From: a bacterium
Lineage (GTDB): Bacteria; Cyanobacteriota; Vampirovibrionia; Gastranaerophilales; Gastranaerophilaceae
Reading direction: 5' to 3'
DNA length: 64,000 nt
Assembly (NCBI GenBank): GCA_017626055.1
Contig: JAGAJM010000006.1
Location: forward strand, 310,001 to 374,000
The position numbers were made by a program, and so were the translations under genes. How positions within the stretch are numbered: position 1 is the stretch's first letter; each line of letters starts with the position of its first letter. The notes under the pieces are model-generated. The model did no database searches. It had not been told where the DNA came from and saw only the letters and a program-made list of their open reading frames with translations. This document shows, piece after piece, positions 36,316-36,834 of the stretch.

Positions 36316-36465
36316 ATGTTTAGCAAAGAGTTTATGAAATTTTTGTATAGTTATCAAAAAGATGACTTTAAACCAAAAGAACCTTTAAAACGTGAGATTA
36401 GGTTCAAAAGTAATGGCGGCGGAAAAGTTGCCGAAGTTTTAGTTCCAGAAACTAACAAAGGTTAA
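36316..36465 (+). CDS. Small ORF (49 codons), hypothetical
   Basis: A 49-residue ORF beginning MFSKEFMKFLYSYQKDDF and ending VPETNKG; it is basic with an aromatic start. An AAAGG lies eight bases before the ATG, and an AT-rich -10-like element is upstream. It is too short for most ORF calling. The stop (36463-36465) falls inside the outer stem of the large palindrome, so the true reading frame may have been truncated by it. Real expression is unproven. Confidence 0.45.
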   Translation: MFSKEFMKFLYSYQKDDFKPKEPLKREIRFKSNGGGKVAEVLVPETNKG

Positions 36466-36562
36466 CAACCCTTACCAATAACTACCTACATTTGATCTCT
36501 CACAAAACAACCATGTGTTGTTTTGTGAGGTGGACGGGAGGGTAGTTCGGTTGTTAACCTTT
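36457..36562. repeat. 106-base nested palindrome
   Basis: Three coaxial perfect helices: AAAGGTTAACAACC / GGTTGTTAACCTTT (14 bp, 36457-36470 with 36549-36562), AACTACC / GGTAGTT (7 bp, 36480-36486 with 36541-36547) and CTCACAAAACAAC / GTTGTTTTGTGAG (13 bp, 36499-36511 with 36517-36529) around the loop CATGT. Internal loops are 9/1 and 12/11 bases. In total 34 bp pair. Confidence 0.9.
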
Positions 36563-36576
36563 TCATACCAAAAAGA

Positions 36577-36602
36577 AAAAGCCTTTCGAAGGAAAGGCTT
36601 TT
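36577..36602 (-). terminator. Terminator-like hairpin after the palindrome
   Basis: AAAAGCCTTTC GAAG GAAAGGCTTTT, 11 bp with a four-base loop. The minus strand follows with TTTTTCTTTTT, the plus strand only with GG, so minus-strand termination is favoured. Confidence 0.65.
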
Positions 36603-36605
36603 GGA

Positions 36606-36700
36606 ATGTAAATTTGATTTCATTCCTCGTAATAGTGAAGTGTGAAGTGTGTGCTTAAGTCTGTTTGTGATTCCTCAATAAGCACGCCTCGTGTTTACAT
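36606..36700. repeat. Long-range inverted repeat pair
   Basis: ATGTAAA (36606-36612) with TTTACAT (36694-36700), and inside it GTGTGCTTA (36649-36657) with TAAGCACGC (36679-36687, one wobble). A tandem GTGAAGT GTGAAGT lies between. Possibly a small structured RNA; strand unknown. Confidence 0.45.
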
Positions 36701-36834
36701 ATTAATAAAGTTTTTTTAGTATATAAAATTGCTATATTTTATATCACTGTCTTAATACTTTTTAACATTTTAGAATTTTTATTTTCGTGCATTATACTAG
36801 AGTTAAGTAGGGATATGATTTTAGGGAGAAAATT

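Follow-up and report, generated by a model that had tools for sequence, protein, structure and literature searches.

A Nested Palindrome in a Gastranaerophilales Genome Probably Stems from an Old Insertion of a Small Dispersed Hairpin Cassette

Introduction

The small dispersed repeats (SDR) of Nostoc and other cyanobacteria, reportedly the subject of a 2008 work by Elhai et al., belong to the sister lineage Cyanobacteria and are by description tens of base pairs long, dispersed, free of any gene of their own and in some cases placed inside other repeats. The hairpin cassette considered below resembles them in these traits; its covariance model has no match in the cyanobacterial genomes sampled, and we know of no strong association of SDRs with the arms of stable RNA genes. 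Rickettsia palindromic elements (RPEs), which are 100–150 nt long and often lie in coding frames, are likewise palindromic inserts that genes, RNA genes among them, can tolerate, but differ by description from a cassette of ~41 nt.

REP, BIME and REPIN elements are interspersed, palindromic and non-autonomous as well, a REPIN consisting of two REPs in inverted orientation and depending on a RAYT (the tyrosine transposase associated with REPs; PMC3116915), whereas the cassette has a single apical hairpin and is abundant in some genomes without a RAYT. Specific insertion into palindromic repeats is also a property of IS1397, ISKpn1 and IS621, which target palindromic units and are full transposons with a transposase (PMC1525189), in contrast to the 41-nt cassette, at whose sites 3–8 nt of the target are lost. 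Finally, quasipalindrome template switching is documented to create and extend hairpin stems (PMC8794818); its products are like those proposed for the present locus, perfect stems being made or extended by copying of the opposite arm, but they would account only for the outer arms of the palindrome and not for its dispersed core. The integron attC core sites RYYYAAC/GTTRRRY, compared by eye, did not fit the outer arms.

The window, i.e., the whole stretch of 64,000 nucleotides that was analysed (G000:C23:310001-374000; host genome G000, 1.87 Mb), carries a 106-base palindrome, bordered on one side by the stop codon of a 49-codon ORF and on the other by the terminator of an sRNA-like gene on the minus strand, in the vicinity of surE. 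It probably originated when a small dispersed cassette, special to Gastranaerophilales, inserted long ago and then diverged. The cassette is a known kind of element, and its family is new.

Materials and Methods

The ORF region and the element were searched at the DNA level in 59 relatives. Weak matches to the core hairpin led to ten loci with a common GCACTCTGCCGAACAAAACAATTAAGTATTGTTTTGTGAGAGG, nine of which were used to build the covariance model R1, the window being left out. Membership in the repeat family was defined by a match to R1 and not by the left junction. Most or all of the compared genomes were metagenome assemblies.

Results

Structure and Surroundings of the Palindrome

The three nested perfect stems proposed in the first-pass annotation (outer 14 bp, middle 7 bp, core 13 bp) were all found (Table 1), the core stem closing a 5-nt loop and forming an apex hairpin at 36499-36529. 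They exceed random expectation, as had been claimed: the RNA fold of the palindrome reached -45.6 kcal/mol compared to an average of -25.9 (sd 3.5; z -5.6) over shuffles, none of 200 being as good, and shuffled windows contained 0–3 perfect arm pairs of at least 13 bp within 100 nt, against several in the real window. Among the matches listed in the window, the palindrome was the sole one with arms ~80 nt apart. No U-run follows the stem, in agreement with the earlier opinion that this is not an intrinsic terminator, and the stop codon of the ORF (TAA, 36463-36465) does lie inside the outer left arm.

Table 1. Coordinates of the palindrome, its parts and the adjoining genes in the window.
Feature	Position	Strand	Remarks
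Conserved 49-codon ORF, intact, directly upstream of the palindrome	36316..36465	+	no Pfam family
Conserved left arm and core	36447..36530	.	95–98% identical in three species; ORF 79–95%
Whole nested palindrome (insert, about 100 nt)	36457..36562	.	absent from syntenic relatives
Outer stem, left strand	36457..36470	+	overlaps ORF stop codon; conserved in three species
Middle stem, left strand AACTACC	36480..36486	+	
Family core (hairpin cassette), diverged copy	36495..36533	-	right end TTGTTTTGTGAGAG on the minus strand is the family consensus
Core stem, left strand CTCACAAAACAAC	36499..36511	+	
Core stem, right strand GTTGTTTTGTGAG	36517..36529	+	
Middle stem, right strand GGTAGTT	36541..36547	+	sequence specific to this species
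Outer stem, right strand	36549..36562	+	fast-evolving; right arm 47–72% identity between sister species
Conserved sRNA-like gene, converging on the insert; a neighbour, separate from it	36570..36711	-	intrinsic terminator 36602-36577

The overlap with the stop codon had been taken as a hint of insertion into an older gene. This was not borne out: the ORF is intact and keeps a length of 48–50 codons in each of the 16 compared loci, whether these carry the insert or not, so that no gene was broken, and the insert is located at or after the stop codon. The ORF represents a small protein family (M[YF]SKEFMKF..YQK[DE][DE]FK), which DNA searching recovered in the majority of 35 genomes from the genus. 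The genes downstream of it vary between species. In the window, the palindrome is followed by the sRNA-like gene (about 36711-36570; fold z -4.75) and then by surE. This gene, to which no Rfam family corresponds, is 97–99% identical in the three sister species G000, G059 and G028 and is conserved in about ten.

Filled and Empty Sites

The ORF region was recovered from most genomes of the genus, while the element itself was present within the genus only in G000, G059 and G028. In eight other syntenic species the alignment gave a spacer of ~10–30 nt between the ORF stop and the terminator, and the three former species have roughly 100 nt more at this place. With three sister species filled and eight other syntenic species empty, the palindrome is an insertion; since its core is, moreover, repeated elsewhere, it is not a single-copy feature shared at one site by all relatives. 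The surE proteins of G059 and G028 are 94–96% identical to that of the window, in comparison with 53–81% for the other loci, but the surE tree leaves the monophyly of the three filled species unresolved, and therefore they could in principle be a remnant of a wider ancestral state.

The Cassette Family and Its Distribution

The family cassette, of ~41 nt, reads GCA-CTCTGCCGA-ACAAAACAAT-loop-ATTGTTTTGT-GAGAG-G, i.e., A-CTCTGCCGA, a 10-bp stem and GAGAG-G. R1 matched 44 of 46 genomes of the genus and 41 of 60 in an order-wide sample, where copies also turned up in a few genomes belonging to two further families and the maximum (75 copies) was found in G087. In a phylum sample it matched 61 of 62 genomes of the bacterial family and none of about 85 outside it, most of which are probably cyanobacteria. 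Across the gut bacteria of the Gastranaerophilales the copy number varies from a few to dozens per genome. Rfam gave no match to the element or the family loci apart from tRNA, 5S and LSU rRNA; exact cassette patterns were absent from viral contigs, the family consensus was absent from phage and plasmid records, and no description of such a family in Gastranaerophilales/Melainabacteria was found in the open-licence literature.

The cassette is maintained as a hairpin, as its stem covaries. Among 115 R1 matches (81 distinct), 98.4% of the stem cells pair, and both sides change in 8 of the 10 inner stem pairs, with a covariation beyond 500 of 500 shuffles, a figure that is not a probability because related copies share history but that agrees with the far lower covariation in every slid control. 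The junctions are near-invariant: A is followed by CTCT in 47 of 48 copies, and GAGAG by G in 45 of 46. The flanks of 48 non-redundant copies are mutually complementary (mean -17.2 against -14.9, sd 0.5, for re-paired flanks; 0/300), and the cassette thus tends to form the tip of a longer hairpin, as it does in the window.

The Window Copy as a Diverged Member

The apex hairpin of the window palindrome is likely a worn member of this previously unlisted hairpin-cassette family. In the own genome R1 matched three places: C1:20551 (65 bits), C10:67943 (35 bits) and the window copy, which scored 29.9 bits on the plus strand (36496-36531) and 21.1 bits on the minus strand, against 60–75 bits for typical copies. 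The corresponding E-values, 7e-6 in the window search and 2e-4 in the whole-genome search, are rough, and the empty outgroup is the better control. The copies at the filled site of the two sister species scored 29.0 and 27.5 bits. The window copy shares with the family the 14-nt exact TTGTTTTGTGAGAG and a matching stem; the left junction A-CTCTGCCGA, which is typical of members but not required, has been lost or changed, and only the GAGAG side is intact, which makes this a diverged member. At such a low score, the evidence for membership is the core stem together with one flank. A second diverged copy, L112 in G059 (32.6 bits), has GAGAGAT followed by AAATGT in common with the window copy, and this helps the assignment slightly. 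The position of the window copy at the apex of a longer palindrome corresponds to a tendency of the family, albeit not a universal one.

Of the first-pass suggestions, a miniature inverted-repeat element comes closest, but it can be retained for the core only. The apex hairpin does belong to a large interspersed family, its site is empty in relatives and two further copies of the core exist in the own genome, but the repeating part is the ~41-nt core: no other copy of the whole 106-base element was found in the own genome, and its two outer stems are not repeated elsewhere.

Unequal Evolution of the Arms

Between G000, G059 and G028, the left arm with the core is more similar than the ORF and the right arm is the most divergent part (Table 1), the spacer beyond the sRNA-like gene being 66–86% identical. 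The pairing of the right with the left arm reached -29.2 kcal/mol in G000 (0 of 2000 shuffles), was weaker in G059 (-18.3 kcal/mol, p 0.004) and was not above chance in G028 (-10.8 kcal/mol, p 0.21). The outer stems are therefore lineage-specific and without compensatory maintenance. Their preservation by compensatory change was rejected, the right arm having diverged without keeping identical pairs. The left arm with its spacer (36447-36486) is almost invariant in the three species, although it is non-coding past the stop codon. A dead insertion does not account for the conserved left arm (84 nt with the core), which may have been put to use.

Insertion Targets

Copies of the cassette were located in partial tRNA copies (D- and T-arms) adjoining intact tRNAs, beside tmRNA genes and inside other palindromic repeats. 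In the own genome, the cassette occupies loop C of an incomplete additional 5S rRNA gene (L184, G000:C10:67643-68290), which lies next to the intact rRNA genes, on the far side of the operon's complete 5S gene. By our count, 31 of the 47 copies retrieved have an intact tRNA or tmRNA gene no more than 300 nt away, compared to ~2% expected at random places (estimated from ~45 such genes per genome). Over all copies the observed share would be smaller, since those retrieved were mostly the best-scoring and many dispersed copies lie in other repeats. In our reading of their orientation, 25 copies are sense and 6 antisense to the host RNA gene.

Fourteen pairs of a filled and an empty site were curated; the cassette had replaced 3–8 nt in 13 of them and none in the other. 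The replaced bases were GGAAC in 5S, GCAGC and GGAAT in D-arms, GGAA in a T-arm, and CGTTAGC and CGCAAGGC at the tips of GTCATTCTGAG palindromes, single bases at the junctions being uncertain because some of the empty counterparts were taken from different copies or genomes. Like MITEs, the family has many interspersed copies and sites that are empty in relatives. Target-site duplication, another mark of MITEs, was not observed, none of these pairs having a long one. No excision of the cassette was seen.

Search for a Mobilising Gene

No mobilising gene or cognate transposase was found for the cassette. For the cassette pairs 1.8–2.2 kb apart in G087, G020 and G089, a cassette-bounded transposon was rejected, as ordinary genes lie between them. 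A reverse transcriptase was rejected as the required mobiliser, RVT_1 being absent from the copy-rich G029, G020, G077, G168, G189 and G200. Y1_Tnp genes occur in 21 of the 46 genomes of the genus and are absent from G000, G028, G059, G063 (24 copies), G077 (49) and G096 (51). The RAYT-like genes of the genus (L208-L214) are mostly flanked by REP-like repeats of their own, GGTAGACTAAAGTCTACCCTAC or TTGGGCATACTTGCCCAAC, and the cassette was near only 1 of 10 Y1_Tnp loci. The RAYT was rejected as the mobiliser because it is missing from several copy-rich genomes and most of the RAYT genes examined are flanked by other repeats.

Discussion

Selection on RNA structure, with the palindrome serving as the 3' end or stabiliser of the ORF mRNA or as a structured sRNA, would agree with the strong fold, with the covariation of the core stem across the family and with a left arm and core conserved more than the ORF. 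It is nevertheless an unlikely explanation, given that the outer stems lack conservation, the insert is missing from eight syntenic species and no Rfam family corresponds to it; furthermore, the occurrence of family copies in both orientations to the host RNA gene argues against a single RNA-sense function. An even less probable origin is that the palindrome arose by itself through template switching and resembles the family core by chance. The low score of the window copy and the ease with which A/C-rich stems are matched speak for such a coincidence, but it would have to produce the exact TTGTTTTGTGAGAG together with the matching stem, at an insertion whose site is empty in relatives, with the above whole-genome E-value and a model that finds nothing in ~85 genomes outside the bacterial family.

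A REP/REPIN element moved by a RAYT was already largely refuted and is very improbable. The copies are palindromic, interspersed and mostly extragenic, and the copy number is higher in genomes with RAYT-like genes, although this correlation is weak (rho 0.44, p 0.0025) and uncorrected for phylogeny; against it stand the copy-rich genomes without Y1_Tnp and the different repeats at most of the RAYT genes examined.

According to the preferred reading, i.e., the old insertion of a dispersed cassette, the element spreads non-autonomously and lands at the tip of another hairpin in exchange for 3–8 nt, and insertion into a foldback tip would generate nested palindromes. Template switching at replication between imperfect arms might then replace one flank by an inverted copy of its partner, and the outer stems would therefore differ between lineages; a fixed template arm next to a rewritten copy arm is the pattern predicted by, and best explained by, quasipalindrome template switching. 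In the window, the cassette would have inserted into the spacer downstream of the ORF, the simplest scenario placing this in an ancestor common to the three sister species; afterward, the left arm and core would have stayed nearly fixed while the right arm was rewritten, leading to 14 perfect pairs only in this species.

The small loss of target bases at the tip, the two orientations and the lack of a long duplication speak for an event at the DNA level, located at a foldback, which might be the copying of a hairpin that is cut or stalled; our preferred guess for the mobilising step is single-strand or hairpin-targeted copying. It is possible, but rather doubtful, that this represents a new mode of dispersal acting family-wide, in which a ~41-nt hairpin is swapped for the tips of DNA foldbacks (tRNA, tmRNA and 5S gene arms and other palindromes) without target duplication, probably by single-strand copying. 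If the proposed origin is correct, a family-wide, very small interspersed element would be added to the known bacterial repeats, with an unusual target in hairpin tips, above all the arms of stable RNA genes that are duplicated. Many filled and empty sites of the cassette are ready for comparison, and the window locus, with one palindrome arm rewritten and the other fixed in three sister species, bears on the origin of long perfect stems.

Several loci contained tandem arrays (L080 130-640; L142; L170; L171; L200) of two to four units, 85–128 nt each, composed of a promoter-like stretch, a tRNA 5' part, the cassette and a variable hairpin. Several of the arrays are located directly 5' of an intact tRNA gene, and the hairpins of their units vary in sequence while palindromy is kept.
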